48,430 nt of DNA from a virus (IMGVR_UViG_3300045051_000319:1-48430); one strand, 5' to 3'. Positions 10,981-36,747 are shown, counted from the first letter of the stretch. The notes: generated by a model not told the origin, from the sequence alone. Numbers and translations: made by a program.

Positions 10981-11343
10981 ATGGCCGACTTCCCGTCCTT
11001 CGTCGCCAAGAAGCGCAACTGCCGCCGCGCCGGCCCGTTCTTCGACGAGATCATCGCCACATCCAAGACCGGGAAGGAAACGCGCGCCTGCTACCAGTTG
11101 GTCGGGCGCTATCGCTGGACGATCGGTCTGACGCGGCTCGGCCAGGATTTGAACGGTGACGAGGTGGCGACGCTCTGCGCGTTCATCGCGGCGCGGCGTG
11201 GTCGTTACGACTCGTTCAACTTCACTTGCCCGCTCGACGGCACGGTGAGGGCGGTCCGGTTCGATACGCCGCAGATCGAACTCGAACGCATCGTCAACCG
11301 GAAGTGGGCCGCCGCGACCATTTCGCTCGTCTCGGTGCTCTAG
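10981..11343 (+). CDS. Minor tail protein, lambda gpM / DUF2460-like
   Basis: The 120-residue protein starts immediately after the tape measure stop. The pattern of a -YRWTIGL- strand, a helix (DEVATLCAFIAARRGRYDSFNFTCPLDG) and a final strand resembles the small tail-tip proteins that follow the tape measure in lambda (gpM) and in gene transfer agents (DUF2460). It probably helps form the distal tail ring. The family match is from memory of patterns and is moderate. Confidence 0.68.
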   Translation: MADFPSFVAKKRNCRRAGPFFDEIIATSKTGKETRACYQLVGRYRWTIGLTRLGQDLNGDEVATLCAFIAARRGRYDSFNFTCPLDGTVRAVRFDTPQIELERIVNRKWAAATISLVSVL

Positions 11344-12282: not shown

Positions 12283-15200
12283 ATGGCGACTCCGACCTGG
12301 GGATACGAGCCGGACTTCGGGCCCAAGCCGCCCTCGGTCCCGATCGCCTCGTCAGCGCCGACGATCACGCGCAACCGGACGGTACTCGTCGACAACGGCG
12401 CGGCGCTCCCGCTCGCCTACGGACTCTGCCGGGTTCAGGGCACAGTGCTGTGGCAGGGCGCTCCGGTCGCGGACGGGACGCAGTCGACGACAGAGTACGT
12501 GATCGCCCTCGCTATCGGGCTGTGCGAGGGGGAGATCACAGGCGTCCGCCGCGTCTGGATCGGAGACGAGGTAGTCAACAACACGCCGGATCCCGGATTG
12601 GCGGCGGACTGGCGGAACCCCTCGCGCACGGTTCCGCGGGCCGGGTTCGAGATCCACGCCGGAACGTGGCCGCAGTCAGTCGCGACGATGCTGTCCGGGC
12701 TGACCGGGGCGAAGCTGGGCACGTCCACCGCGCCTTCATTCAACTGGTCCGGCACGGCCTATGCCTGTCACGATTCGTTCTGGCTGAAGGAAAAGGCGAC
12801 CCTTCCGACATCCATGACGTTCGAGGTCGAAGGGATGTTCATGGACGGGACGACGCTCAATGCGTCACCCGCCGACGTCCTGAACGATCTCCTGACACAC
12901 CCGCGGCGCGGGGCTGGCCTCGACTCGTCGCTCGTCGATGCGGACGCGCTCGCCGCGTACCGCGCGTACTGCGCCGCCGCGGGGATCGGGATCTCCTGGG
13001 TTATCGACAGTCAGGGCTCGCTCGTCGATCAGGTCAAGACGTTGATGACCGCTACCAACGCGGATCTCTTCTGGTCGTGGAAGGCGGACGGGAGCGGCGG
13101 GTGCTTCAAGGTCGTGGTGCTCGCGGATCAGCCGGTACTCGACGATCAGGGCAACGCGGTGTGGTCGCCGCCGACGATCCCTGAGTACGACCTGATGGAA
13201 GACGATTTCAAGCCGTCCGGCGGCGACGACTTGCTCCGGGTGGAGCAGCTCCCGGACATCGAGACGTACAACTCGTTCCCGGTGGAGTATCTCGACCGCT
13301 CGATGGGGTACGTGACCAACCTCGTCGCGGACGACGATCTCGTGGATGTGCGGACCTTCGGCCTGAGCCGCGCGCCGACGACGACGCTGCATTGCATCCC
13401 CGACGACTCAACGGCGCAGTTCATCGCTCGACTCATCGCGCAGCGGACGACGCGGTGCCGGAACGAGTACCACTTCCGGCTCGACTGGCGCCACGGCCGG
13501 CTCGAGCGCGGGGACATCGTCACGATCACGGATAGCGTGTTCGGGCTCGACCACGTCCCGGTGCGGATCACCGTGATCGACGAGGACGGGGATGGACTGC
13601 TTGAGGTGACGGCGAAGGACTGGCCGCCCGGCGTTTCCGCGGCAGCGCGCTGGGGAACGCAGGCCGGGGAAGGCTCCGGGCCGGAGTTGTGGCCGGACGA
13701 TCTTGTGCCGGCGATCCGGGAGGGGGAGATCGGCGCGGGGGTGGACGCGCTTACGTGCATGATGACCGCCGACTCGCTCGTCATCGCGGGCGACTCGAAC
13801 GGTAACGTGACGGCCGGGCTTCCGTTCACGACCACGATGATTGTGACGCGCGGGACCACGGATGAGTCGAGTTCGTGGACCTTTAGCGTGTCACCCGCGA
13901 GCAGCGGATCGAACGTCACCTACAGCCGGACCGGCAATGCGATCACGGTCACCGGCCTAGCGGCGTCGATCGACATGGCGCAGCTCACGATCACCGCGAC
14001 GCTTGCGGGAAGTCCGACCCTGACGCGCTACTTCAGCATCGCGAAAAGCAGGGTGGGGCCGACGGGGGCGACGGGCGCCACCGGAGGAACGGGATCCACG
14101 GGGGCCCCGGGCACTCCCGGCGTGAATGCGCTGTCGGCGTACATGACGCTCCCGGCCGCGGCGGTCACCTGTGACAAGGATGGGAATCCAACCGTCAGCC
14201 TACCAACGAGCCAGATGATCCCGATGTACGGGACGAACCAGGACACGGGTTGGGCATTCAGCGGCAGCGCTGATCAGGGATCGCTGGGCTACTCGGTGAA
14301 CGGGAGCACGGGCGTCGTCACGATCTCGAGCTTCCCGAACACGATCGACTCAGCGGTGGTGACGGTCACGGCGACGAAGGGAGGGCAACCCAACCTCGTC
14401 TGCCGCTTCGCGCTGTCCAAGAGCAAGGTCGGAGCCACAGGCGCGACCGGATCGACGGGGGCGACCGGATCTCCGGGCAGCAACGGCACGAACGGCGCTC
14501 GCGGGTCGATGGCGTTCTATCTCAACGGCTACACGTCGTGGAGCGACACGGCGGCGAATAACGCCACGCTCTACAGCGCGACGGCGGGCTATACGCGCAT
14601 CTTCGGGGACACGGTCTGTGAGTACGGGACCGGGTTCTCGCAAACGAAGATGTGGAGCGGGTCGTCATGGGACGTGCTCGCGGTGACCCTCGATGGTTCG
14701 CTGCTCGTCCACGGGAGCGTTGCGGCCGACGCGCTCGGCGCCACGCTCGTCCTTGGGACCCGGATTCAAAGCGGTTACACCTATGACGGCGGCACGGCCG
14801 ACAGTCCCACCCGGGTGACGGGCGGCGCAATGCTGTCGGGCGCGGGCGGTCCGCCGTTGAAGATCGCGCCTGACGGGATCCAGATCGGTGCTACGAAACT
14901 CTCGGAGGCGTGGTTTGGGCAGTCGCTTATCGGGGTGGCGTCACTCTACAACCCGGGGACCGGGGCCGATCCAACGATGGCCGCGCACACGGCAAACATG
15001 TCCCCATCTTCGCCAACGTGGGGCGTGCAAACCATCGCGGGCCAGGCAACGTGGGCGCTCTGGATCGCGGACAGTTTCCCGACGATCAGCGAGGCCGATC
15101 AACTCGCAGGAGATGTCTACATCGTCATGCCGCAGGCAGAGCACCAGTGGTACATGGGGAGCACCGATTCCCGGACCGCGCTGGCCTGGCGACCGATCGT

Positions 15201-15378
15201 CGTCACCGACACGGGATGGGGCGGGTTCAGGTCGGCCGGGTACAACACGGACATTCAGCGCGGCTACCTTGCGTTCATCGACGGTAGCGGAAACTTTGTG
15301 GTGGACCCGCGAGGTTACAAGTGGTCCGTCACGATCACTTATGCGGCGTACCGGATGACCACGCAGTTCATCTTCTAG
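12283..15378 (+). CDS. Tail tip/hub protein (gpJ / GTA gp15-like) with collagen-like fibre extension
   Basis: The 1031-residue protein combines a baseplate hub with a receptor-binding part. Residues 20-470 match the hub pattern LPLAYGLCRVQGTVLWQGAP, EGEITGVRRVWIGDE and repeated beta domains. From about 485, two Ig-like domains each end in a KSRVG/KSKVG motif leading into Gly-X-Y triplets (about 592-613 and 717-741), which should form triple helices. The last 290 residues are probably the receptor-binding tip. The stop at 15376-15378 overlaps the end of a convergent lipoprotein gene. Confidence 0.85.
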   Translation: MATPTWGYEPDFGPKPPSVPIASSAPTITRNRTVLVDNGAALPLAYGLCRVQGTVLWQGAPVADGTQSTTEYVIALAIGLCEGEITGVRRVWIGDEVVNNTPDPGLAADWRNPSRTVPRAGFEIHAGTWPQSVATMLSGLTGAKLGTSTAPSFNWSGTAYACHDSFWLKEKATLPTSMTFEVEGMFMDGTTLNASPADVLNDLLTHPRRGAGLDSSLVDADALAAYRAYCAAAGIGISWVIDSQGSLVDQVKTLMTATNADLFWSWKADGSGGCFKVVVLADQPVLDDQGNAVWSPPTIPEYDLMEDDFKPSGGDDLLRVEQLPDIETYNSFPVEYLDRSMGYVTNLVADDDLVDVRTFGLSRAPTTTLHCIPDDSTAQFIARLIAQRTTRCRNEYHFRLDWRHGRLERGDIVTITDSVFGLDHVPVRITVIDEDGDGLLEVTAKDWPPGVSAAARWGTQAGEGSGPELWPDDLVPAIREGEIGAGVDALTCMMTADSLVIAGDSNGNVTAGLPFTTTMIVTRGTTDESSSWTFSVSPASSGSNVTYSRTGNAITVTGLAASIDMAQLTITATLAGSPTLTRYFSIAKSRVGPTGATGATGGTGSTGAPGTPGVNALSAYMTLPAAAVTCDKDGNPTVSLPTSQMIPMYGTNQDTGWAFSGSADQGSLGYSVNGSTGVVTISSFPNTIDSAVVTVTATKGGQPNLVCRFALSKSKVGATGATGSTGATGSPGSNGTNGARGSMAFYLNGYTSWSDTAANNATLYSATAGYTRIFGDTVCEYGTGFSQTKMWSGSSWDVLAVTLDGSLLVHGSVAADALGATLVLGTRIQSGYTYDGGTADSPTRVTGGAMLSGAGGPPLKIAPDGIQIGATKLSEAWFGQSLIGVASLYNPGTGADPTMAAHTANMSPSSPTWGVQTIAGQATWALWIADSFPTISEADQLAGDVYIVMPQAEHQWYMGSTDSRTALAWRPIVVTDTGWGGFRSAGYNTDIQRGYLAFIDGSGNFVVDPRGYKWSVTITYAAYRMTTQFIF

Positions 15379-17672: not shown

Positions 17673-18122
17673 ATGGCCGCACTGACCAACGCCTTCAAGT
17701 TCGACGCGCTGAACAATGCGTTGAGCAACACGATCACCCCCGGCACCGCGGGGACCGGAGACGTGCTCAAGTGCGTCTTTTACTCGGACGCCAAGACCGA
17801 CACGCTCGCGGCCTACACGGCCACGAACGAAGTCACCCAGCCCGGAGCGACCCCGGCGATCAACGCGAAGGGTCTCGCGCTGACCCGCAGCACGACCACG
17901 GCGGGTGACGGCTCGGCAGCAACGGCGGGGTGGGACTTCGACAATCTCGTCGTCACGCCCGCCAGCTCGTTCGCCTTCCGAACGATCGTGATCATCAACA
18001 CGACGAAGGGCGACCGCACGGTGTGGTTCCATGACTACGGGTCAACGCAGACGTGGAACGCGGGCACCCAGTACACCCTCCAGGTCCCGGCAAGTGGCAC
18101 CTACTTGCTAACCCTGGCCTGA
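17673..18122 (+). CDS. Hypothetical beta-rich virion protein
   Basis: This 149-residue, Thr/Ala/Asn-rich protein has no charge clusters or membrane segment and looks like a beta-sandwich (repeated alternating strands, final TLQVPASGTYLLTLA). A GGAGAGGAG site gives strong initiation. It opens the accessory late block, so it may be a tail-fibre or decoration component. I do not recognise a family. Confidence 0.55.
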   Translation: MAALTNAFKFDALNNALSNTITPGTAGTGDVLKCVFYSDAKTDTLAAYTATNEVTQPGATPAINAKGLALTRSTTTAGDGSAATAGWDFDNLVVTPASSFAFRTIVIINTTKGDRTVWFHDYGSTQTWNAGTQYTLQVPASGTYLLTLA

Positions 18123-18135
18123 AAGCGGGGGCAGC

Positions 18136-19383
18136 GTGGCGAACGTCGTCATCCTGTCGCCGCTCTACACGTACGCCACGCAGGCGGGATCGGCGGAGCC
18201 GGTCCCGTTCGTTTGTTCCGGCGTGACGGACGTTCCGGGGCAGATCGTCGTCCTCTCGGAAGACACGACCGGGGCGGAACTGGGGCGGACGTCGGCCAGC
18301 AACACGGCGCTTCCCTCCGGGGCCTATGCCGGTTGGTATCCGTGGGCGACGACGATCTCGACGTGGTCACCGACGAACAGCCTGGGGGCTCCGGCGGCTG
18401 GCCTGACCGCGTCGGCGGGCGGGGTCGGATGCTCGGCGGTGGTCGGGTTGGCGGCGGGTTCTGGGGCGATGGCGACGGGGCCGGTGAGCTACTTCGCTGG
18501 GCTTGGCATGGGCGCGGCGGCGTTGACGGCGGGTGCGGGGGGCGTCGGCTGCGCGGGGCTCGTTGGGATGGCTGCCGGGGCGGGAACGGCTGGGGCGGGC
18601 GGGATCTCGATCTCGGCGGCGGCGGACGCGACCGCTCCGGTGGTGACTGCGTTCACGGTGGGAACGCCGAGCGGATCGTCGGTTCCGATCACGGCCTTCA
18701 CCGCGACGGACGCGGTCGGTGTCACAGGCTATCTCGTCACCGAGTCGAGCACGCCTCCCGCAGCGGGCGCGGCGGGCTGGACTGGCTCGGCGCCGAGCAC
18801 GTACACCGCAGTCGGCACGGGGAGCGTGACGCTGTACCCGTGGGCGAAGGACGCGGCCGGGAATGTGTCGAGCGTGTTTGGATCGCCCCGGACGGTGACG
18901 ATCACGGGCGGCGCATCCCTCACCTCCGACTTCGAGGCCGACGCGAACGGATGGACATTCTCCAACGGCGCCGCGCGATCCAACACGTCGCCCATCGCCG
19001 GCTCTTACTCGGTGCGCAAGACCGGATCGGGCGCATTCGACGCGGAGGTCGCTGCCAAGACGGTGAGCGGAAACCGGCAGAACATCACCTCGATCACGAT
19101 CAAGTACCGTCTGTCGCAGGGTCAGCCAACGACCGGGCACCAACTGTCCATTTATTGCGGTCCCGCTCAGCCGTTGTTCGACGGCTTGAACCACATCAAG
19201 ACGCTGGTGGCTGACGACGTGGTGCATGAGTTGACGTTCAGTGGTGCTGTCAACCCGGGCGTCACCGGCAGTGGAGCTGTCCGTCTCCAGGCAAAAGTCC
19301 AGGACTACGATGACGGGGAACCCTGGTACACCCCGTTCACCCTCACGATTGACGACGTCGTGATCAACGGGATCTCCTCGTGA
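18136..19383 (+). CDS. Adhesin-like late protein with Gly/Ala repeats, Ig-like and carbohydrate-binding-like domains
   Basis: The 415-residue protein starts at GTG 18136. Residues 1-85 are beta-rich. Residues 90-165 hold a degenerate repeat of the type TAGAGGVGCAGLVGMAAGAG. Residues 170-255 form an Ig-like domain (DATAPVVTAFTVGTPSG to WAKDAAGNVS). From 265 onward the segment FEADANGWTFSNGAARS starts a jelly-roll-like domain resembling carbohydrate-binding modules. The same repeat type occurs in the adjacent subtilase, with which it overlaps by GTGA. It may be a tail-side fibre that binds glycans. Confidence 0.6.
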   Translation: MANVVILSPLYTYATQAGSAEPVPFVCSGVTDVPGQIVVLSEDTTGAELGRTSASNTALPSGAYAGWYPWATTISTWSPTNSLGAPAAGLTASAGGVGCSAVVGLAAGSGAMATGPVSYFAGLGMGAAALTAGAGGVGCAGLVGMAAGAGTAGAGGISISAAADATAPVVTAFTVGTPSGSSVPITAFTATDAVGVTGYLVTESSTPPAAGAAGWTGSAPSTYTAVGTGSVTLYPWAKDAAGNVSSVFGSPRTVTITGGASLTSDFEADANGWTFSNGAARSNTSPIAGSYSVRKTGSGAFDAEVAAKTVSGNRQNITSITIKYRLSQGQPTTGHQLSIYCGPAQPLFDGLNHIKTLVADDVVHELTFSGAVNPGVTGSGAVRLQAKVQDYDDGEPWYTPFTLTIDDVVINGISS

Positions 19384-22217
19384 GTCCCGACCGCCGCCAC
19401 GTCCAGATCCTCGCGGTCAGGTTTCGGAAGTGGGACGATGCGGCCGTCCGCCGCGTCGTGCAGGAGTGTGGCGGCGTCGTGGAGAAGCTCACGCCCGAGT
19501 TACGTATGGCGCGTGTTTCTCCCGCGCCCGACGCGGACATCGAGGGGGTGCGGCAGCGACTAGCTGCGCGTTCCGAGGTAGAGGCTGCGACCTACGCGCT
19601 CCGCATGAACACGCGGGGCGCGTATCACGCGGCGACGAACGACACGCACCTCGATCTGCACTACCACCTGAAGCGCACCAACGTCTTCCACGCCTGGAAG
19701 TACACGCGGGGCGATCCGTCGGTGAGGGTTGCCGTCGTTGATACAGGGCTCGTCCATTCCGCGGTGGTCGCGCCTACCGGGAACGGGGACTGTCCGCTGC
19801 CGGACTCGTCCTATCGCTCCGAGGACAATGCGGCGGTCCCCTGGGACTACGGGGAAGGCGACTGCGAGTCAACGAACGTCGACTACAGCCACGGGACGAC
19901 GTGCTGGGCCATCATCAAAGCGCTGGCGAACAACGGCAGCGGCATCGCCGGCATCGCACCGGACTGCTACGGGATCATGGTTGCCGCCGCAGCGTCCACC
20001 TACCCCGACGTCATCAGCATCTACGCCGCCGAAGGAATCATCGAAGCGACCAATCGTGGAGCGCGCATCATCAGTTGTAGTTGGGGGCAGGTGGTCCCCG
20101 TCGATGCGAACGAGCAACCCACGAATCAGAACGGGTGGGACCTAATCAATGCCGTCCAGTACGCGCTCGATCACGGCGTGCTGGTGATCAACGCGGCCGG
20201 GAACCTCAACGAATACTACCCATCCGCGAACAGCTACGGTCCCGCTACCTCGTTCATGTGGCCCGCCGAGGTGGACGGCGTGCTGCTCGTGTCGAGCGCG
20301 GGCGGGCCTCCTCCACACCCGGAGGACACGCCGTACAATGGCGCCGGAGCGACGGATGGTCCGGCCTACGGGGCGGGGATAGAGGTCGTCACTCCAGCCC
20401 AGGACGTGTTCACCGCGCTCGGCCCCGGCTACGTCGCGCCGAGCTACGCGAACATTGGCCCGGACTACGGATACGGTGCGTGGTGGGACGGCCTGGTTGT
20501 GGCGAACGGGCAGCCCTATGGCGGCGGCCCGCTGCTCACGCATCACCACAGCACTTCATTTTCCGCGCCGCAGGTCGCGGGGGCGGCGGCGCTCATCCTG
20601 TCGATCAACCCGGCCCTCACCGCGGAGCAGGTCAAGGCCATCCTGAAGTCGTCGGGCGGGCCAGTGAGCCACGCTGGCGTCGCCGTCCGGTATCCGAGCT
20701 TCCCCGGCATCCTCGACACCGGGAAGGCGGTGACGAAGGCGCTCGCGACACTTCCGGCGAACGCCGGGCGGGTGTTCCCGTACGCGCGCTTCATCGGCAC
20801 CGGAGTCGTGGTCAGCGTGTCGGGCGGCGTGGCGACAACGACGCTTCCACTCAACCAGCCGATCACGCTCGACGCGGCGGGGTTCAGTTCGGACCCGATC
20901 ACGGGCGTCGAGGTGTGGGTCGGTTCGCGGCGCGTCTACTCGGGGACCGGCGGCACCGCGACGGTCACGATCACGCAGGGTGGTCCGGTTCGTGTCGTCG
21001 CGCGGACGGCCACCACCGAAACGTCTGAGACTTACTCCGACGTGGGAACCGCTCCGACTTACGCGCTCACGATCCAGGCGGGAACCGTCAGCGGCGCCGC
21101 AGTGACGGCGTGGGGGACCCGGGCCGCAGACTCGACCATCGCCGTCACCGCCCCTGGCGCGTCGGTGGGCGTGGTCGGTTACCCCGACTCTACCTCTTGG
21201 CAGGCGACCGTCTCGGACCTCCCTTCCGGAGCGACGACGATCACCGCAAGCGACGGGACCGACTCCGCAAGCGTGACGGTACAGGCGGGCGCGCGTCCGC
21301 ACACGATCCGCGCCACGGCCGGGGCTGATTCTGCCTCGTTCCCTTACTCGCTCCCGCTTGAACTCGGCGAGACCGGATCGACGGTCACTCTCGTTCCGGG
21401 GTGCGACACGCCCCCCGCGGTGCTGACGTCAGGGGCAGGGGCCGTTGCGCTGCGCGGCGCGCTGCCTGTGGCGGCGGGGAACCTGACGGCGGGGGCGGGC
21501 GCCGTGTCGCTGGCGGGTCTGCGGGGACTGCCGGCTGCGGCCGGGACGCTCGCCACCCCGGGAGCAAAGGCGCTCGGCGCGCTCGGCGCGGTTTCGGCCA
21601 ACGGGACGACCTCCGCTCAGCCGGTGTCATTCACTGCGACGCCGTCCGGTCATCGCCTGCGCGCCACCGCGGACGGTGCGCCGGCCTACGTCTGGATCGT
21701 ACCCGGCGCGGACGCGGGATCGGGTTTGGCATCCTCCGGAGCGGGCGCCGTCGCGATCGGCGCGCAGGTTCCGGCGCCTCGGGCCTCTGGCGCGTTCGCG
21801 GCGGCAAGCGTGGCCGTCCTCTCCGGGGCCGGGGTCGCGGTTCCGGCGGCGGGGATGACCTCCGGGGCGGGGGCCATCTCGATCGCCGCGGTCGTTCGCG
21901 CCCCGTCCGCTGCGGGCGTACTCGTGTCCGCGCCCGTCTCGGTTGCGATCTACGCCGCGCCGCTCGGCGTGCCGGCGGCAGGGGCGACCTCGGGCGCAGA
22001 GTCGATCGGGATCTCCGCCGTGGTCCCGGTCCCGATCGCCTCCGGCCTCTTCTCCGCGACTCCGATCGGATACCACGGCGGCGCGTTCTACGACGAGGAC
22101 CAGGCGATCGACGCGGTCCTCGTCCGGTTCGTCATCAACGCGAAACCGACCCACATCCACGCCGACGCGCGGAAGCTGTCGATCGCAACAACCGCGCGAA
22201 GGTACGTCGGGAGGTAG
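19380..22217 (+). CDS. Subtilisin-family serine protease (S8) with C-terminal repeat region
   Basis: The 945-residue protein has a complete catalytic domain: Asp121 in VAVVDTGLVH, His171 in DYSHGTTCWA, oxyanion Asn275 in INAAGN and Ser393 in STSFSAPQVAG. Residues 1-75 resemble an I9-type propeptide. There is no signal peptide, which fits a virion-bound enzyme rather than a secreted one. Residues 470-640 are beta domains, and 650-900 carry about eight degenerate 20-25 residue SGAGAV-type repeats. The GTG start overlaps the upstream stop. Substrate is unknown; host surface protein or capsule-associated protein is a guess. Confidence 0.87.
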   Translation: MSPDRRHVQILAVRFRKWDDAAVRRVVQECGGVVEKLTPELRMARVSPAPDADIEGVRQRLAARSEVEAATYALRMNTRGAYHAATNDTHLDLHYHLKRTNVFHAWKYTRGDPSVRVAVVDTGLVHSAVVAPTGNGDCPLPDSSYRSEDNAAVPWDYGEGDCESTNVDYSHGTTCWAIIKALANNGSGIAGIAPDCYGIMVAAAASTYPDVISIYAAEGIIEATNRGARIISCSWGQVVPVDANEQPTNQNGWDLINAVQYALDHGVLVINAAGNLNEYYPSANSYGPATSFMWPAEVDGVLLVSSAGGPPPHPEDTPYNGAGATDGPAYGAGIEVVTPAQDVFTALGPGYVAPSYANIGPDYGYGAWWDGLVVANGQPYGGGPLLTHHHSTSFSAPQVAGAAALILSINPALTAEQVKAILKSSGGPVSHAGVAVRYPSFPGILDTGKAVTKALATLPANAGRVFPYARFIGTGVVVSVSGGVATTTLPLNQPITLDAAGFSSDPITGVEVWVGSRRVYSGTGGTATVTITQGGPVRVVARTATTETSETYSDVGTAPTYALTIQAGTVSGAAVTAWGTRAADSTIAVTAPGASVGVVGYPDSTSWQATVSDLPSGATTITASDGTDSASVTVQAGARPHTIRATAGADSASFPYSLPLELGETGSTVTLVPGCDTPPAVLTSGAGAVALRGALPVAAGNLTAGAGAVSLAGLRGLPAAAGTLATPGAKALGALGAVSANGTTSAQPVSFTATPSGHRLRATADGAPAYVWIVPGADAGSGLASSGAGAVAIGAQVPAPRASGAFAAASVAVLSGAGVAVPAAGMTSGAGAISIAAVVRAPSAAGVLVSAPVSVAIYAAPLGVPAAGATSGAESIGISAVVPVPIASGLFSATPIGYHGGAFYDEDQAIDAVLVRFVINAKPTHIHADARKLSIATTARRYVGR
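21420..22050 (+). repeat. Degenerate SGAGAV-type amino-acid repeats in the subtilase C-terminal region
   Basis: About eight units with the loose pattern T-S/A-GAGAV/I-x-I/L-A-x-x-V-x-x-P-x-A-A-G follow one another (for example TSGAGAISIAAVVRAPSAAG). Related units occur in the upstream gene at about 18400-18620. The Gly/Ala-rich, evenly spaced pattern suggests a repetitive beta structure or linker stalk. Confidence 0.65.
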
Positions 22218-22220
22218 TCC

Positions 22221-22541
22221 ATGGCGACGAACGAGGTCTTTTGCGGAGACGACAAGCCGTTCCGGTTCGCGGTGCCGGACGACCTCGCGGTCGAACTCGA
22301 GGGCGCGGCCTTCTACTGTTCGGTGCAGACGTCGGGCGGATCCAAGATCAGCGCCGCCGAGACTACGGTGGACGTGGCGAACCGGGTCTGCTGGGCGTGG
22401 TTCAGCAAGGCGCAGACCGCGGCCATGGTCCCGCCCAAACAGTATTCGGGCGACGGACTGCTCGTCCTTGCGGACGGCGACAACCACACCATCGGAACGA
22501 TCTCGTTCAGGGCGGTCGCGAGGACCACCCCGAACCCGTGA
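22221..22541 (+). CDS. Hypothetical protein of the accessory late block
   Basis: This 106-residue protein starts three bases after the subtilase stop. It is probably all-beta (strands such as FRFAVPDDLAVELEG and GTISFRAVAR) with three Cys. There is no signal peptide. It may be a chaperone or a small fibre subunit for its neighbours. I do not recognise it. Confidence 0.5.
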   Translation: MATNEVFCGDDKPFRFAVPDDLAVELEGAAFYCSVQTSGGSKISAAETTVDVANRVCWAWFSKAQTAAMVPPKQYSGDGLLVLADGDNHTIGTISFRAVARTTPNP

Positions 22542-22549
22542 GGACGCCC

Positions 22550-23977
22550 ATGCGAAAGACCGCGCTTGCTTTGCTGCTCCTCGGGACCGCGTCCGCTCAG
22601 GTCTTCCCGAAGTCGGACGCGCGAGCGTGTTCCGGTTCCTCGACGACGTTCTGCGCCGACGACGCGAACTGGCTTTACGACCAGATCCTCCTGCGCCCCG
22701 TTTACTCAGGGGTGACGTCGAACGGGTCCAACGGCCTCGCGATCGTTGGAGGGGTTGACATAGGAACAGGTGAGCCGACGCTGCTGGGCGTGACCCCACT
22801 CACGGTGAGCGCGCTACAGGCGCTCGCTTCACCGACCACGAACGATCTCCGCTGGGTTTCCAACGGAGCGACCGCGAGTGATTGCACGGTGGGTGGGGGG
22901 GGGGACTTCCATCAATGTCGGTGGACGGGCTCGGCGTGGGTGGCGACGACGGCGGCCTACACGCTGCCGGCTGCGGGGGCCTCGACCCTCGGCGGCGTGC
23001 GGGCGCTGACCTGCTCAGGGACCGACAAGCTCTCCGCGATCGGCACGGACGGGATCCCGGTCTGCACCGCCGATCAGAACTCCGGCGGCGCGGGTGGAGC
23101 GTCGTCAACCGTGACCGGCGCCACGACCGCAGCCGATCCAGTCGTCGTGTCAGGCGTCGCCACTCCGGCCGGGTCGTATGTCCGAGTCGTCGAGGCGGGC
23201 ACGGGTACGACGCGGTACGCGGCCAGCGACGGATCGACGGGCGCGTGGTCGGCGGATTTCGGGAGCCTCGCGGAAGCGTCGTACACCTTCGTCGCGGAGG
23301 TCGTGACGGCCGGGACGGTCGTGGTGAATCGCTCGGCGCCTACGGGGATCGCGCTCGCGGCGGGGACGGGGATCAACACGTTCGATTCGACAGGTGCGGG
23401 AGGCGGGGCGATATCCAAGACCTTCTCCGTCAGCGACACGAACACCACGCTTTTGCTCGCGTCATCCATCTTCGACGGTGACGACCCTGGAACCTCTCCG
23501 CCGACAGTTACGGATGGGACGGTGTCGTGGACACTGCTCGGGTACGCCTATACCCCGGCCGGACACCGCACGACGGTCGTCTGGAAGGCTACCTCGGCTG
23601 GAACTGTCGCCAGCCACGACGTCACCGTCACATGGCCGCGATCGGAGAACCGAAGCATTTCGATCGTTGCGCTCAAGGGCGCGTCGTCGCTGGGAGCCCC
23701 CGTCGCTCGGTCGAACGAGAATCACCTAGAAGACAACACAGTGTCGGTCACGACCACCGTTTCTAATTCCTGGGTGGTCGGGTTCGGCCTGGCGCTGGCT
23801 TACGGGGCCTCGCCATCTTGGACCGCGGACACGACGCTGATCGGGACTCCCTGGAACGACGGCTACGCCTGGCTGTGGGCCGCGTACAAGGCGACGACGG
23901 GCACGGGCACGTACACGCTCGGTGCGACGAACCAGGGGGGAGACGGTGCCCTTGTGGCTGTTGAGGTAAAGCCGTGA
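22550..23977 (+). CDS. Secreted adhesin-like protein with signal peptide and G10 tract
   Basis: The 475-residue frame starts at ATG 22550 with a clear Sec signal peptide, MRKTALALLLLGTASAQ. Two Cys-containing segments follow, then long Ser/Thr/Gly/Ala-rich beta domains. The C-terminal 200 residues resemble jelly-roll modules seen in phage and surface adhesins. A run of ten G at 22895-22904 lies inside the coding frame, so slippage would truncate the protein. A signal peptide is unusual for a tail protein and suggests action in the periplasm or at the cell surface. The next gene overlaps by GTGA. Confidence 0.62.
   Translation: MRKTALALLLLGTASAQVFPKSDARACSGSSTTFCADDANWLYDQILLRPVYSGVTSNGSNGLAIVGGVDIGTGEPTLLGVTPLTVSALQALASPTTNDLRWVSNGATASDCTVGGGGDFHQCRWTGSAWVATTAAYTLPAAGASTLGGVRALTCSGTDKLSAIGTDGIPVCTADQNSGGAGGASSTVTGATTAADPVVVSGVATPAGSYVRVVEAGTGTTRYAASDGSTGAWSADFGSLAEASYTFVAEVVTAGTVVVNRSAPTGIALAAGTGINTFDSTGAGGGAISKTFSVSDTNTTLLLASSIFDGDDPGTSPPTVTDGTVSWTLLGYAYTPAGHRTTVVWKATSAGTVASHDVTVTWPRSENRSISIVALKGASSLGAPVARSNENHLEDNTVSVTTTVSNSWVVGFGLALAYGASPSWTADTTLIGTPWNDGYAWLWAAYKATTGTGTYTLGATNQGGDGALVAVEVKP
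22895..22904 (+). repeat. Homopolymer G10 in a coding frame
   Basis: Ten consecutive G encode three Gly codons plus the first base of Asp in the TVGGGGDF segment. The frame is intact at this length. Gain or loss of one base would end the product early, as in contingency loci. Confidence 0.85.
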
Positions 23978-25995
23978 CGGGAGCGCTGCTCGCGCTCGCG
24001 CTTGGGGCCAACCAGGCGGGGATCAACATCCCGTTTCCCTACGACGCGCAACCCGTGGTCTGGGCTGACGTGGTCAAGACCCTCCGCGTCATGGACGATG
24101 TGGCGCGCACGCGCCGAGCGAACAAGGACGCGAACGGCTGGCCCACGGAGGACGTCGAGTTGGGGCTCTGGTACGACCCCGCGAACCGGCACGGCACCTA
24201 CGCGATCTCGTTCACCGGGCAGGCGACGGTCACGGGCCTCGATGACTTCGCCGTGTCGGGCGTCTCCTACAACGCGGGGACGAACACGACCACGGCGGTC
24301 GGGACGGTCACGAACTCCGGCGGCAGCACCGCTCGACTCCGCCTGACGAGCACCAAGCGGCTCGCGGGGGATTCTCCGGGGACCGGGATCACGAACCTGA
24401 AGATCATGCGCCCGATCGCGCCAGGCTCGGCGACGCCGCACGCGGTGAGCGACATGTTCGGCACTCACATCCGGGATCTCGTGCAGCGGTTCAACGGCCC
24501 GGTCCGCTTCATGGACCTGACGAACACAAACTACAACCAGCAGTCAACGTGGTCGGAGCGGATGCGGCCCGCGTTCTCGTACTACACGATCCCCCGGGAC
24601 GAGCGGGCGCTGCCCGGCGACTACAACGTGGGCGCCCCGTGGGAAGACGTGATCCGGCTCGCGAACTACGTCCAGCGCGACGCCTGGGTGAACGTGCCGA
24701 TGAAGGCGGACGCCACGTACGTCACCAAGATGGCGCAGGTTTTCAAGTGCGGATCGGACGGGACGGATCCCTGGGTGAACGCCGGGACGAGCACGTGCGC
24801 GGCGGGAACGCCGACCTATCCGCCGCTCGACGCGAACCTGAAGCTCTACGTCGAGTACAGCAACGAGATGTGGAACTTTCACCGCTCGTACGTGGACGCG
24901 CAGCTCGCGGTGGAGCCCGGGGACTCCCCGATCTTCTTCGACGGGAACGCAGAGGCGCCGTGGTTCCGGTGGGTGGCGTACCAGGGGATCAAGGTTAGCA
25001 ACTCGTTCCGGGCCGTGTTCGGGGACGCGGCCATGATGACGCGCGTGCGGCCGATCTACGCGACGCAGATCAACGACGGGAACGCCGCGCTGACCTACGT
25101 CGTCCCGATGATGCTCGGCTACTTCAACAACATGCAGGGGAACTACGTCGGGAGCCCGCACCCTCCGTCATACTACTTCTACGGAGCCGGCGGAGCGCCG
25201 TACCGCTACCCCGCGGGCGGGTACACGATCGACACCGTCTGGGAGTCGGGCGGCATGGCGATCGGGTCGCACTACGACTACAACTTCCAGACCGACGCCC
25301 GACCGATCGCGGTGATGGGGCTCCGCCACATCGAGTACGAGGGCGGCCCGCAGTTCTTCGGGAACGACACCCTCGCGCGCCAGATCAACGCGGACTCGCG
25401 GATCCGGGCCAAGGTCGTCGCGCAGCACCAGGAGGCTGCCGCCGATGGCGTGGAGATGATCGTCTACTACACGGCGTCCGGGAATGCGCCGTGGGAGTTC
25501 ACGCCCAGTCTTTACGATCTGAATACGCCGAAGATGCTGGCCGTGGACGACATCCTGGGTGCGTCGCAGTACCCGATCACCTACGGTCCGGCGATCCCGG
25601 CCACGCTCGACGGGGCGAACATCTCCGCGTCGCCCAACTCGCAAAGCCACGGCGGAACCGGGAGCCGCGCGCTGAACTCAGCGAGCGCGCCGTGGACGGG
25701 GTATCTGTTCCGAGCGGCGACATCGCTGGCCGGCTCGACGGTGACGCTCTCGAAGACCGGCACCGGCACGGCGACGGTCTACGTGGACGGCGCCGAGATC
25801 GGCGGCGACGGGACGACGTTCAGTGCCGGATCGCTCTCGGCCGGGCTCCACGGCGTCGTCGTGCGCGCGAGCGCGGGATCGTTCACGCTCAACACGGTCG
25901 CGATGAACGGGACGGCGGTGGAACCACCTCCCGCTTCCGGAACGCCCTCGACCCGTCTGCGCGGGGTGAGGGTTCGGGGAGTGAAGGCGCGGTGA
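23974..25995 (+). CDS. Putative TIM-barrel glycoside hydrolase (possible depolymerase)
   Basis: The 673-residue protein starts at GTG 23974. Residues 140-540 look like a clan GH-A type barrel: the strand LYVEYSNEMWN carries Asn297-Glu298, the usual place of the acid/base, and GLRHIEYEGGPQ carries Glu456, a candidate nucleophile. Tyr/Trp-rich segments (WFRWVAYQG, SHYDYNF) would line a glycan cleft. Residues 555-650 form a jelly-roll domain resembling a carbohydrate-binding module. The N terminus (ALLALALGANQA) is hydrophobic but a poor signal peptide. The substrate is unknown; a host capsule or exopolysaccharide is likely. Confidence 0.68.
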   Translation: MTGALLALALGANQAGINIPFPYDAQPVVWADVVKTLRVMDDVARTRRANKDANGWPTEDVELGLWYDPANRHGTYAISFTGQATVTGLDDFAVSGVSYNAGTNTTTAVGTVTNSGGSTARLRLTSTKRLAGDSPGTGITNLKIMRPIAPGSATPHAVSDMFGTHIRDLVQRFNGPVRFMDLTNTNYNQQSTWSERMRPAFSYYTIPRDERALPGDYNVGAPWEDVIRLANYVQRDAWVNVPMKADATYVTKMAQVFKCGSDGTDPWVNAGTSTCAAGTPTYPPLDANLKLYVEYSNEMWNFHRSYVDAQLAVEPGDSPIFFDGNAEAPWFRWVAYQGIKVSNSFRAVFGDAAMMTRVRPIYATQINDGNAALTYVVPMMLGYFNNMQGNYVGSPHPPSYYFYGAGGAPYRYPAGGYTIDTVWESGGMAIGSHYDYNFQTDARPIAVMGLRHIEYEGGPQFFGNDTLARQINADSRIRAKVVAQHQEAAADGVEMIVYYTASGNAPWEFTPSLYDLNTPKMLAVDDILGASQYPITYGPAIPATLDGANISASPNSQSHGGTGSRALNSASAPWTGYLFRAATSLAGSTVTLSKTGTGTATVYVDGAEIGGDGTTFSAGSLSAGLHGVVVRASAGSFTLNTVAMNGTAVEPPPASGTPSTRLRGVRVRGVKAR

Positions 25996-25999
25996 CGCC

Positions 26000-27184
26000 G
26001 TGTGCGCGATCGACTGCCCCGGCTGCGATCTCCCGGAGGGCTGCGGGAAGCCGTGGGACACGGAGTACGACGCGCCGGGGGTGTTCGGGAGGTGCTGGCG
26101 GAAGGGGGACTTAGTGGCCTGCTCGACGTACAAGTGGAAGCCGGAGAGGCGCCGCGAAGTCGAGTGTGCGCTCCGGGCGTCCAAGTCGCGGAAGGAAGCG
26201 GCGCAGCTTCTCGGCATCGGACTCGGTGCCCTCGACCACGCCGCGAACACCTACGGCTTCCCGATCGCGGAGACGCTGGGGACGGGGGCGGACGCGCCGA
26301 CGATCGACGCGCCTCCGTCCCCGGAACTCACGATCGACGAGCTGCTTGAGCAACGGGAACGCCGGTTCGCCCGGAAGACCCGGCACGAGGAAGCCCGGAA
26401 ACTGATCGGGGTGCGCATCAAGAGCAACGAACCGATCGGCATCGTCCATCTAGGCGATCCCCACCTCGACGACGACGGCACGGACATCCCCTGCATTCGG
26501 TCGCACATGGCGATCGTCAAGGCGACCCCGGGCCTCTACGTGGCGACGGTGGGCGACACCACGAACAACTGGATCGGCCGGCTCGCCAAGCTCTACGCGA
26601 TGCAGTCCACGTCACAGTCAGAGGCGTGGATGCTCGCGGAGTGGCTCATCGGGGAGGGACGGGGGAAGTGGCTGTACCTCGTCGGCGGCAACCATGACCT
26701 CTGGAGCGGGTCCGGCGATCCCCTGAAGTGGATCACGGCGCAGGCCGGCGCGCTCTACCAAGACTCGGAGGCCCGGGTCGCGCTCCGGTTCCCCAACGGG
26801 ACCGAGGTGCGGGTCAACTGCCGGCACGACTTCGCCGGCAACAGCCAGTGGAACCCGGCGCACGGGCCGATGAAGGCGGGGCTCCTCGGCTGTCGGGATC
26901 ACATCCTCATCGCCGGCCACAAGCACATCAGCGCGTACGGGATCCTGAAGGACCCCGAATCCGGCACGGTGCTCCATTCCATCATCGTCGCGGGCTACAA
27001 GGTGTTCGACCGCTTCGCCCGAGACAAGGGGTTCCGAGACCAGCGGATCAGCCCCTCATGCTGCACGGTCATCGACCCCCGGCTTGCGGCCGACCATCCC
27101 GGACTCGTCAAGGTGTTCTGGGACCCGCATGAAGGGGCCGAGTACCTGACGTGGCTGCGAGGCCGCCAGCGCGCGGCAGCGTGA
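26000..27184 (+). CDS. Calcineurin-like metallophosphoesterase with N-terminal Cys and HTH-like region
   Basis: This 394-residue protein has all metal motifs of the superfamily: D153-x-H155, D186 in VGDTTNNW, N231-H232 in GGNHD, H276 in CRHDF and H307-x-H309 in AGHKHISAYG. The first 42 residues hold six Cys in CxxC-like spacing, and residues 63-88 (SRKEAAQLLGIGLGALDHAANTYGFP) look like a helix-turn-helix. DNA or nucleotide phosphodiesterase activity is likely. It is the last rightward gene before attP, a usual place for cargo gained by imprecise excision. Confidence 0.82.
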   Translation: MCAIDCPGCDLPEGCGKPWDTEYDAPGVFGRCWRKGDLVACSTYKWKPERRREVECALRASKSRKEAAQLLGIGLGALDHAANTYGFPIAETLGTGADAPTIDAPPSPELTIDELLEQRERRFARKTRHEEARKLIGVRIKSNEPIGIVHLGDPHLDDDGTDIPCIRSHMAIVKATPGLYVATVGDTTNNWIGRLAKLYAMQSTSQSEAWMLAEWLIGEGRGKWLYLVGGNHDLWSGSGDPLKWITAQAGALYQDSEARVALRFPNGTEVRVNCRHDFAGNSQWNPAHGPMKAGLLGCRDHILIAGHKHISAYGILKDPESGTVLHSIIVAGYKVFDRFARDKGFRDQRISPSCCTVIDPRLAADHPGLVKVFWDPHEGAEYLTWLRGRQRAAA

Positions 27185-27416: not shown

Positions 27417-28457
27417 CTAGAGGGGGGCTCCGACGCTCCGGCGGCGCTCGGTGGCGCGGAGCGCGTGGAGATACTTCTCCGTCGTCTTGATGCTGGCGTG
27501 GCCCATCCGCTCTTGGAGCCCGCGGAGATCGCCCGTGTTCCGCAGGTAGACGGTGGCGTAGGTGTGCCGGAGTTCGTGCGCGGAGTAGGGCTCGACGCCC
27601 GCCGCCTTGCAGGCGCACCGGAGGCGGTGGTCGAACTGGCCCGCCTCGTCATCGGGGACGCCGCCAAGGTCGAGGAGCTTCCGCGCCGCCCCCACGGTTC
27701 GCATCGACACGGGAATGGTCCTGGCGCGTCGCCGCTTCGTCCTGGGGACGTGAATGCCGCCCGGTCGAAGGTCCGAGGGGGCCATGCGCGCGAGCTCGCC
27801 ATAACGCAGCCCAGAGCCTAGGACGACCTCCGCGGCAAGCCGCCACTTCGGGAGCAGTTCCGCGTTGACCGCGCGCCACACCTTCTCCGGGATCTCGTGC
27901 GGCGCGTTCGCCCCCTCATCTTCGCGTAGGAGGGCGACCTTGGTGTCCGCGTCGTTCGTCGTGATGCCCTCGGATCGAGCCCAGGTCATCAGGGCTTTGA
28001 GGGCGGCCAGGTCGCGATTGACGGCGGGGCGGCCCACCTTCCGGCCCGCAACGCCCCCGTCCGCGCGCCACGCCATGTAGGCGCGCACGTCGGAGTCGGT
28101 GAAGGTGTCGAGGTTGGGGAAGAGGCGACTTGTACCGAGGTTATCGAAGTACCCGCCTTGCTTCTCGACGTGGCCGGGGCTGTTCTGCGCGGTCAGCGCG
28201 GAGAAGCGGAGGTAGCCTTCGACCGCCGACCCCCAACGAGACGACGCGCCAGCAGTCGGAAGGACGGAACGGGGGTTGCGCTCCCAGCGGCGATAGACCT
28301 CGGCCGCGGCGATCGGATCGACACAACCCGTGCTCCGGCGGAACCGGGCGCGGCCGGGGAGGGTGCGGTCGATGTAGTGGTAGCCGCCATCGGTGTAGCC
28401 GACGACGACGCCGTTGAGCTTCCAGGGCTTGCGGGAAGACCGCGCCTTGCGAGGCAC
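27417..28457 (-). CDS. int: Tyrosine-family site-specific integrase
   Basis: The 346-residue recombinase has the full active site: Arg218 in GSGLRYGELARM, Lys241 in the beta-hairpin, His294-x-x-Arg297 in SAHELRH, His320 in RMGHASIKTTEKY and Tyr329. Residues 75-180 are the core-binding domain and the basic N terminus probably binds arm sites. I chose GTG 28457 because GAGGAG lies eight bases upstream; longer starts run into the xis-like gene. It is the last gene of the leftward operon and lies next to attP. Confidence 0.93.
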   Translation of the reverse strand: MPRKARSSRKPWKLNGVVVGYTDGGYHYIDRTLPGRARFRRSTGCVDPIAAAEVYRRWERNPRSVLPTAGASSRWGSAVEGYLRFSALTAQNSPGHVEKQGGYFDNLGTSRLFPNLDTFTDSDVRAYMAWRADGGVAGRKVGRPAVNRDLAALKALMTWARSEGITTNDADTKVALLREDEGANAPHEIPEKVWRAVNAELLPKWRLAAEVVLGSGLRYGELARMAPSDLRPGGIHVPRTKRRRARTIPVSMRTVGAARKLLDLGGVPDDEAGQFDHRLRCACKAAGVEPYSAHELRHTYATVYLRNTGDLRGLQERMGHASIKTTEKYLHALRATERRRSVGAPL

Positions 28458-28648
28458 CGCTCGTACTCCTCGACTGCCGAGAGGGCGACGCGACGATCCG
28501 CCCCCACCGTGATGCCGGAGTAGACACCGAGGCGCGTCATTTCGTCCAGCGCCCGGTAGACGCTCGACTTGGAGCAGTCCCACCGCCCCATGAGGGAGCG
28601 GGCCGAAAGGAATCGGGCCAGGGCCGGGATGGCGACCGACCCCGACAC
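28193..28648 (-). CDS. Excisionase-like helix-turn-helix protein overlapping int
   Basis: From GTG 28648 the frame encodes about 70 residues with a winged-helix/MerR-like pattern: FLSARSLMGRWDCSKSSVYRA (turn and recognition helix), a beta wing and SAVEEYERCLARR. This is the layout of phage excisionases. The start shares one base with the upstream stop (TAGTG). The frame then continues, low in complexity, to 28193, overlapping int by 265 bases, so the C-terminal 80 residues may be tolerated read-through sequence. The int ribosome site lies inside its Glu-Glu codons. Confidence 0.62.
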   Translation of the reverse strand: MSGSVAIPALARFLSARSLMGRWDCSKSSVYRALDEMTRLGVYSGITVGADRRVALSAVEEYERCLARRGLPASPGSSTASSSATPMAATTTSTAPSPAAPGSAGARVVSIRSPRPRSIAAGSATPVPSFRLLARRLVGGRRSKATSASPR

Positions 28649-35711: not shown

Positions 35712-35739
35712 AGTTTACGCGCGTAAACTAAGAAGTCAA
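35712..35739 (-). promoter_or_regulatory. PL: leftward early promoter
   Basis: On the minus strand a TTGACT -35 box (35739-35734) and a TAAACT -10 box (35717-35712) are separated by 16 bases. The -10 box overlaps operator OL1. Boxes, spacing and the ten bases before the -10 are identical to those of PR at 36463-36490. It should drive the operon from 35639 to int. Confidence 0.85.
35713..35728. promoter_or_regulatory. Operator OL1, perfect 16-bp palindrome
   Basis: GTTTACGCGCGTAAAC, fully symmetric, overlaps the PL -10 box. The same 16 bases occur at 36474-36489 over PR. Confidence 0.9.
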
Positions 35740-35742
35740 GCG

Positions 35743-35758
35743 GTTCACGCGAGGAAAC
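35743..35758. promoter_or_regulatory. Operator OL2, imperfect copy
   Basis: GTTCACGCGAGGAAAC matches the perfect operator at 13 of 16 positions. It lies exactly 30 bp from OL1, upstream of the PL -35 box, a spacing of about three helix turns that suits cooperative binding. Confidence 0.75.
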
Positions 35759-36144: not shown

Positions 36145-36420
36145 CTACTTGCCCCGGCGCGTCATGTTGGGCGGGTCGGTCTTGAGGATCTGGGTGACGC
36201 TGAAGCCGGTGATTTCGCTCATGGCGATGAGCATTCGCAGATGGGGCACGCGGCGGGATTCTCGCGAGATGATCTGGGATAGGCCGCCCTTCGTATATCC
36301 GACAGCCTTGGCGAGAGCCTCGTCGGTAGGAAAATCGGCCGAATAGTTGTCGCGGATCCAGCGCACCCAGCGGACGACGTTGTCGCGGGCGTCCTGCACC
36401 TGTTTTTCGTAGGGCGACAC
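36145..36420 (-). CDS. Prophage repressor, small XRE-like HTH protein
   Basis: The 91-residue protein has a helical N terminus (DARDNVVRWVRWIRDNY) and an XRE-type helix-turn-helix at residues 32-59 (TDEALAKAVGYTKGGLSQIIS), ending TGFSVTQILK. It is encoded against cro between the two operator pairs, the place of cI. It has no LexA/S24 cleavage domain, so RecA-driven autocleavage is not expected. I chose GTG 36420; the long upstream frame overlaps cro. No good ribosome site is present, so the mRNA may have a very short leader. Confidence 0.75.
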   Translation of the reverse strand: MSPYEKQVQDARDNVVRWVRWIRDNYSADFPTDEALAKAVGYTKGGLSQIISRESRRVPHLRMLIAMSEITGFSVTQILKTDPPNMTRRGK

Positions 36421-36443
36421 GGGGTCGGTGTACGCCGCGAGTG

Positions 36444-36459
36444 GTTTACTCGGGGGAAC
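36444..36459. promoter_or_regulatory. Operator OR2, imperfect copy
   Basis: GTTTACTCGGGGGAAC matches the perfect operator at 12 of 16 positions and lies exactly 30 bp from OR1. It lies upstream of the PR -35 box and 24 bp from the repressor start, so it may also control the repressor's own promoter. Confidence 0.7.
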
Positions 36460-36462
36460 CTG

Positions 36463-36490
36463 TTGACTTCTCCGTTTACGCGCGTAAACT
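36463..36490 (+). promoter_or_regulatory. PR: rightward early promoter
   Basis: TTGACT (36463-36468), 16 bases, then TAAACT (36485-36490). The predicted transcription start falls at or within a base or two of the cro-like ATG at 36498, so the mRNA may be leaderless. Confidence 0.85.
36474..36489. promoter_or_regulatory. Operator OR1, perfect 16-bp palindrome
   Basis: GTTTACGCGCGTAAAC overlaps the PR spacer and -10 box. Identical to OL1. Confidence 0.9.
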
Positions 36491-36497
36491 GCTCCCG

Positions 36498-36737
36498 ATG
36501 GCATCGGAGAACCCCCTGCTCGTGTTCTTGGCGGAGAAGAAGCTGACGCAGAAGAGATTTGCGCTCCGCTACCGCTTCCCCGAGCCGACCGTTTCGACTT
36601 GGGTGAGCGGCGATCGTCGCCCGAGCCTTTCATCGGCCCTCCGCCTCGAGACGAAGACGCGGGGGAAGATCCCGGTATCGAGTTGGCCGCATCTGCGCGG
36701 CGTCGTCGCCAGCCTGCGCGCTTCCCAGTCCGAGTGA
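36498..36737 (+). CDS. Cro-like HTH regulator
   Basis: The 79-residue protein has an HTH at residues 16-43 (LTQKRFALRYRFPEPTVSTW) followed by LETKTRGKIPVSSW, the end pattern of Cro/YdaS-type proteins. It is the first gene of PR and faces the repressor. ATG 36498 lies only seven bases after the -10 box. The expected role is to bind the same operators and favour lytic growth. Confidence 0.8.
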   Translation: MASENPLLVFLAEKKLTQKRFALRYRFPEPTVSTWVSGDRRPSLSSALRLETKTRGKIPVSSWPHLRGVVASLRASQSE

Positions 36738-36747
36738 GGTCCACACC

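Follow-up and report, generated by a model that had tools for sequence, protein, structure and literature searches.

The IMG/VR virus record IMGVR_UViG_3300045051_000319, a stretch of 48,430 bases that we call the window when we mean it as a whole, comes from an uncultured temperate bacterial virus. Its head and tail module is of the lambda/HK97 type, with terminase, portal, maturation protease, capsid, tape measure and tail-tip protein. After the lysis genes, which include small membrane proteins and an M15 endolysin, six plus-strand genes occupy positions 17673-25995, and a late-operon phosphoesterase closes the run as a seventh gene, starting 4 nt past gene 6. The initial annotation had described a block of six coupled genes here, and all six reading frames are indeed present: the seven genes are tightly packed between the lysis region and a convergent integrase, with successive genes either overlapping by 4 nt or separated by gaps of 3-13 nt. 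The features are as follows.

12283..15378, plus strand: tail-tip protein (Phage-tail_3, phrog_1101), lying about 2.3 kb before the block and including a collagen-like segment
15780..16358, plus strand: M15-type endolysin, opening the lysis region ahead of the block
17673..18122, plus strand: gene 1, a small beta-rich protein of 149 aa with a 52%-identical homologue in contig L330
18136..19383, plus strand: gene 2, 415 aa, with Gly/Ala-rich stalk-like repeats and an Ig-like, possibly jelly-roll C-terminus (recognised by eye)
19380..22217, plus strand: gene 3, a predicted subtilase zymogen of 945 aa that lacks a signal peptide
22221..22541, plus strand: gene 4, a small partner of 106 aa with a weak match to phrog_1084
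22550..23977, plus strand: gene 5, 475 aa, starting at the ATG at 22550, with a signal-peptide-like N-terminus
23974..25995, plus strand: gene 6, a putative clan GH-A-type glycoside hydrolase of 673 aa with a C-terminal beta domain and a short hydrophobic N-terminus
26000..27184, plus strand: gene 7, a metallophosphoesterase (phrog_7339) coupled to gene 6
27417..28583, minus strand: tyrosine integrase, convergent with the late operon and related to an integrase in contig G002

In coding bias (GC3 0.80-0.91) the block is phage-like, and in base composition it matches the remainder of the phage. Elsewhere in the window, four palindromic operator-like sites (GTTTACGCGCGTAAAC; two perfect and two with two mismatches, against 0.02 expected) lie at 35713-35758 and 36444-36489 and flank divergent helix-turn-helix-type genes (36145-36744, minus strand, and 36441-36737, plus strand), in what is probably the immunity/repressor region.

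The subtilase and the glycoside hydrolase

Gene 3 matches the Pfam family Peptidase_S8 (PF00082) with E=9.1e-26 over residues 115-425, and residues 13-70 match the fervidolysin prodomain below the threshold. Its architecture comprises a prodomain (about residues 8-74), the S8 domain (about 101-430), a beta-rich region (about 470-635) and a repeat-rich C-terminus. The catalytic residues D121, H171, N275 and S393 are intact, and in an alignment of 40 rows (gene 3 and 39 viral subtilases) the last three are invariant while D121 is conserved in at least 90%; the Asp-His-Ser triad and the oxyanion Asn in a subtilisin fold place the protein in peptidase family S8, which bears out the complete subtilase of the initial annotation. 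The structural model is weak overall (pLDDT 53), with no alignment depth in the C-terminal half, and its C-terminal third is of low confidence and was left out of the interpretation. Because the model can be read at residues 8-74 and in the catalytic core, and because Foldseek puts fervidolysin (3e-14) and unprocessed pro-subtilisin E at the top of its ranking, we predict that gene 3 encodes a zymogen with a long C-terminal region. Fervidolysin and pro-subtilisin E (PDB 1r6v, 3whi) have the prodomain, the subtilisin fold and the triad in common with gene 3; they are, however, secreted bacterial proteases that carry signal peptides, which gene 3 does not. A resemblance between gene 2 repeats and the C-terminal part of gene 3 was discarded as a sign of homology, since a shuffling test (z 2.8) indicated that it is mostly compositional.

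An exact-pattern search of viral contigs returned no close relatives of gene 3, a stringent S8 pattern had no match, and S8 proteases are rare in named phages, tblastn of gene 3 giving only six weak matches in 50,697 phage records. A degenerate active-site pattern found at least 120 matches, and S8 proteases are thus frequent in environmental viral contigs. We surveyed 78 neighbours of 55 non-redundant viral subtilases picked for a prodomain-like, signal-free start, and many of these neighbours match baseplate-wedge, fibre-connector and tail-fibre PHROGs, the top such families having 18, 15, 11 and 10 members. Tail-located phage subtilases are therefore a general phenomenon, and a phage subtilase is by itself not unusual. 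The surveyed proteins, which look mostly to be of myovirus type, resemble gene 3 in having an S8 domain behind a short prodomain-like region without a signal peptide; in contrast to them, gene 3 lies after the lysis genes of a phage with a lambda/HK97-type tail, and the sequences are distant.

Gene 6 matches nothing by sequence in Pfam, PHROGs, NCBIfam or PDB, and neither sequence nor profile comparison assigns it to a named GH family in Pfam, NCBIfam or PDB; a profile of its own family found no PDB chain and shares no Pfam family. Its homologues were collected with a DNA pattern for EYSNE[MVI]WN and with a genome search that also employed other patterns, which yielded about 124 members of a coherent family. 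N297, E298 and E456 are conserved at 98-99% across these, and a set of 56 diverse members shows no exception at R178, N297, E298 or E456; since EYSNE was part of the viral search pattern, its conservation there is partly a product of selection, and R178 and E456 were not in the search. Retaining enzymes of clan GH-A have an Asn-Glu pair containing the acid/base, a second Glu as nucleophile and a conserved Arg, which we take to correspond to N297-E298, E456 and R178, respectively. The AlphaFold2 model (pTM 0.80, with the barrel mostly above pLDDT 90) matches GH79, GH10 and GH5 structures in the PDB with E values from 4e-5 to 8e-3 and a TM score, normalised by target, of at most 0.45, as well as phage GH5 proteins, so that a (beta/alpha)8 barrel is supported as the fold class while the superposition is weak.

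With these invariant residues and a GH-like barrel, the ‘putative GH’ of the initial annotation gains substance, and gene 6 is most likely a retaining clan GH-A-type glycosidase. It shares with the clan's GH79 beta-glucuronidase, GH10 and GH5 members the barrel, the Asn-Glu acid/base, the Glu nucleophile and the conserved Arg, and is unlike them in its large insertions and its lack of sequence matches in Pfam, NCBIfam and PDB. Judged from sequences and models, both enzymes of the block look active. A 120-aa gene in the tail module (10981-11343) bears the PHROG name ‘glycoside hydrolase’ (phrog_2913), a label that looks misleading, as Pfam identifies a DUF2460 tail protein.

On the family tree, gene 6 is sister to a protein of contig G002 (support 100/96), next to which stands a protein from Bacteroidota; the latter is cellular and lies in a locus (L071) with sulfatases and other polysaccharide and carbohydrate enzymes. 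Along the tree, membership switches between viruses and cells at least three times. One viral group (L007, L022, L030, L033, L036, L053, L054 and others) consists of hydrolases that begin with a short hydrophobic stretch and are about 497 aa long, and in L033 the gene stands alone, in the opposite orientation to the adjoining DNA polymerase and repair genes; these are probably secreted phage glycosidases. As a by-product of wider interest, a widespread GH-A-like family thus emerges that is absent from the protein-family libraries searched, secreted by Rhodobacteraceae and others, and present in a Bacteroidota polysaccharide locus and in phages.

Relatives and the slot before the phosphoesterase

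The hydrolase of G002 is 34% identical to gene 6 over the whole enzyme, including the C-terminal beta domain. Unlike gene 6, this hydrolase (G002 / L063) is part of a single 1286-aa polypeptide, in which a signal/lipobox N-terminus and chitobiase-C-like domains precede the enzyme, and it lies before the lysis genes, between a head-closure/virion protein and small late proteins in a structural run that starts with terminase, portal and capsid. No subtilase was found in G002 / L063. G002 also has a phosphoesterase 59% identical to that of the window and a related integrase (E=5e-40), whereas its structural genes are unrelated; the sharing of the hydrolase, the late-operon end and the integrase, and not of the particle genes, points to a trait linked to the host.

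The metallophosphoesterase family phrog_7339 occurs in about 340 viral contigs and, in those examined (L250-L329), often closes the late operon after lysis-type genes. Of 30 relatives with this phosphoesterase, 29 have a gap of 1.3-2.4 kb between the end of their last long gene and the phosphoesterase, occupied by small genes that are mostly of lysis type. In L250 this gap is filled by a 655-aa protein with GDPD and CBM6-like domains (L250:7833-9797), which matches a tail-fibre PHROG with E=4e-31 and ends 219 nt before a phosphoesterase 62% identical to that of the window: the block of the window occupies the same slot as this tail-fibre-type protein. The homologue of gene 1 in L330 lies directly after lysis-type genes, and in L002 a member of the hydrolase family comes last in a series of structural-type genes located after the lysis genes. 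The initial annotation had regarded the position after the lysis genes as abnormal for tail enzymes; as L250, L002 and L330 also carry structural or fibre-type genes there, this view does not hold. The slot is instead a place to look for enzyme-bearing fibres.

The remaining genes of the block are less readily placed. For genes 2 and 5, which the initial annotation labelled adhesins, gene 2 with a putative glycan-binding-like domain, Pfam, PHROGs and NCBIfam gave no matching family, none of genes 1, 2, 4 and 5 matches a known tail family, tblastn of these four and of gene 6 found nothing in 50,697 phage records, and a search for relatives of gene 5 was likewise empty. The signal peptide previously noted for gene 5 is apparent as a signal-peptide-like N-terminus, MRKTALALLLLGTASA-Q. 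Aligned with the N-terminus of the fused G002 hydrolase, the N-terminal region of gene 5 scores 69 (shuffled sequences: mean 42, sd 7.7, maximum 74), which is only suggestive of kinship. Sec signal-peptide-like or lipobox N-termini occur on tailspike or fibre-type genes at L330:2698-4560, at L246:6202-10059 and at 22550-22600 of the window, and are unexpected on proteins that are assembled into virions in the cytoplasm. The tailspike of L330 is of the beta-helix type, with a VLDYGAVGNGVADDTTAIQ motif recognised by eye, and begins with MKRLLLALLLLSTAFA, which is signal-like as is the start of gene 5; a signal-like N-terminus is therefore compatible with a fibre role for gene 5.

Role of the block and comparison with known systems

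We think it probable, though well short of certain, that the block is an exchangeable adsorption module with two enzymes acting on the host coat. An exchangeable tail fibre or spike module would sit in the slot that the lysis genes and the late operon's terminal phosphoesterase delimit. Genes 1, 2, 4 and 5 would most likely provide its structural and binding parts, with gene 3 as a subtilase that matures itself and gene 6 as a retaining glycosidase of clan GH-A. We infer that the products are present on the virion in one complex, where the two enzymes would cut protein and polysaccharide of the outer coat of the host, be it capsule, slime, a glycosylated surface layer or biofilm matrix, and so allow the tail tip to reach the cell. 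A tail role is argued from four independent gene contexts, those in G002, L250, L330 and L002, and from the signal-free viral subtilases that adjoin baseplate-wedge and tail-fibre genes; that the cellular relative of the hydrolase sits among sulfatases and polysaccharide enzymes also speaks for this explanation. Of the virion or cell-surface complex with two activities put forward in the initial annotation, the coupled block with a predicted complete protease and a complete clan GH-A-type glycosidase stands, and the gene contexts of the relatives favour the virion (tail); the supposedly abnormal location falls away.

Against a tail role count the Sec-type N-terminus of gene 5, the lipobox of the G002 hydrolase, the clade with lone hydrolase genes, and the missing tail-family matches of genes 1, 2, 4 and 5. 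Several of these would suit prophage cargo, at least genes 5 and 6, that the infected cell or lysogen exports, outside the virion, to degrade or remodel the extracellular matrix, for example freeing progeny or altering the surface of the lysogen. The hydrophobic N-terminus of gene 6, the short hydrophobic starts of lone hydrolases among replication genes in the L033 clade and the position of the block near the integrase end are all in keeping with this. Yet the largest product, that of gene 3, lacks a signal peptide, the block belongs to the late transcription unit directly after the lysis genes, a canonical beta-helix tailspike (that of L330) has a similar signal-like start, and the same slot in L250 is taken by a tail-fibre-type enzyme. 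Because of the lone L033-group hydrolases, the export-type signals and the absence of a second two-enzyme contig, we hold association with the tail to be no more than probable, and secretion to be unlikely while still deserving of consideration.

The zymogen architecture of gene 3, its signal-free start and its position directly beside its presumed substrates could also fit a maturation protease, which would process either itself or the adhesins next to it as the tail is assembled and leave the hydrolase alone to act on the host; we consider this improbable, as a protein of 945 aa with long C-terminal beta-rich and repeat regions is more typical of surface-acting subtilases. That unrelated moron genes without a joint function piled up by chance where the late operon ends would agree with an enzyme combination unique among the contigs examined and with the different location of the G002 hydrolase, before the lysis genes, but is very improbable given that all seven genes overlap by four bases or nearly abut and that the base composition is the phage's own.

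Returning to the two-enzyme adsorption module, we found no contig besides the window with both S8 and the hydrolase among the fetched loci, and no S8 family match in eight whole hydrolase-bearing records. As no other contig examined carries both enzymes, the case for a joint function is their adjacency in the window. A virion-borne machine that pairs a self-activating subtilase with an uncatalogued clan GH-A glycosidase for joint action on a glycoprotein or protein-plus-polysaccharide coat, and whose structural partners are encoded by the genes flanking and separating the two, is accordingly a tentative proposal that we hold to be possible rather than probable.

Neither the post-lysis placement nor a phage subtilase alone is unusual; what is new is the presence of both enzymes in one cassette. 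Such a pairing was not found in the literature that we searched, the coverage of which was incomplete. The words ‘protease’, ‘subtilisin’ and ‘proteolytic’ are absent from a review of phage entry enzymes (PMC6116005), and phage attachment enzymes are viewed mainly as cutting polysaccharide. Some virion-associated depolymerases do cleave polypeptides, the one verified peptidase named being that of phage PhiNIT1, which acts on poly-gamma-glutamate (PMC5380687), and glycosidase-fold tail fibres have been reported in Acinetobacter phages (PMC11058221). The block is plausibly a variant within the tail-depolymerase systems. Like the tailspike and tail-fibre depolymerases of phages (PMC5380687), among which GH-type and GDPD-type fibres are known, it combines late-region enzyme genes with binding domains and is presumed to open surface polymers. 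It differs from them in bringing two enzyme classes, a serine protease and a clan GH-A glycosidase, into one cassette, which would extend the reach of phage attachment enzymes to mixed coats of protein and sugar.
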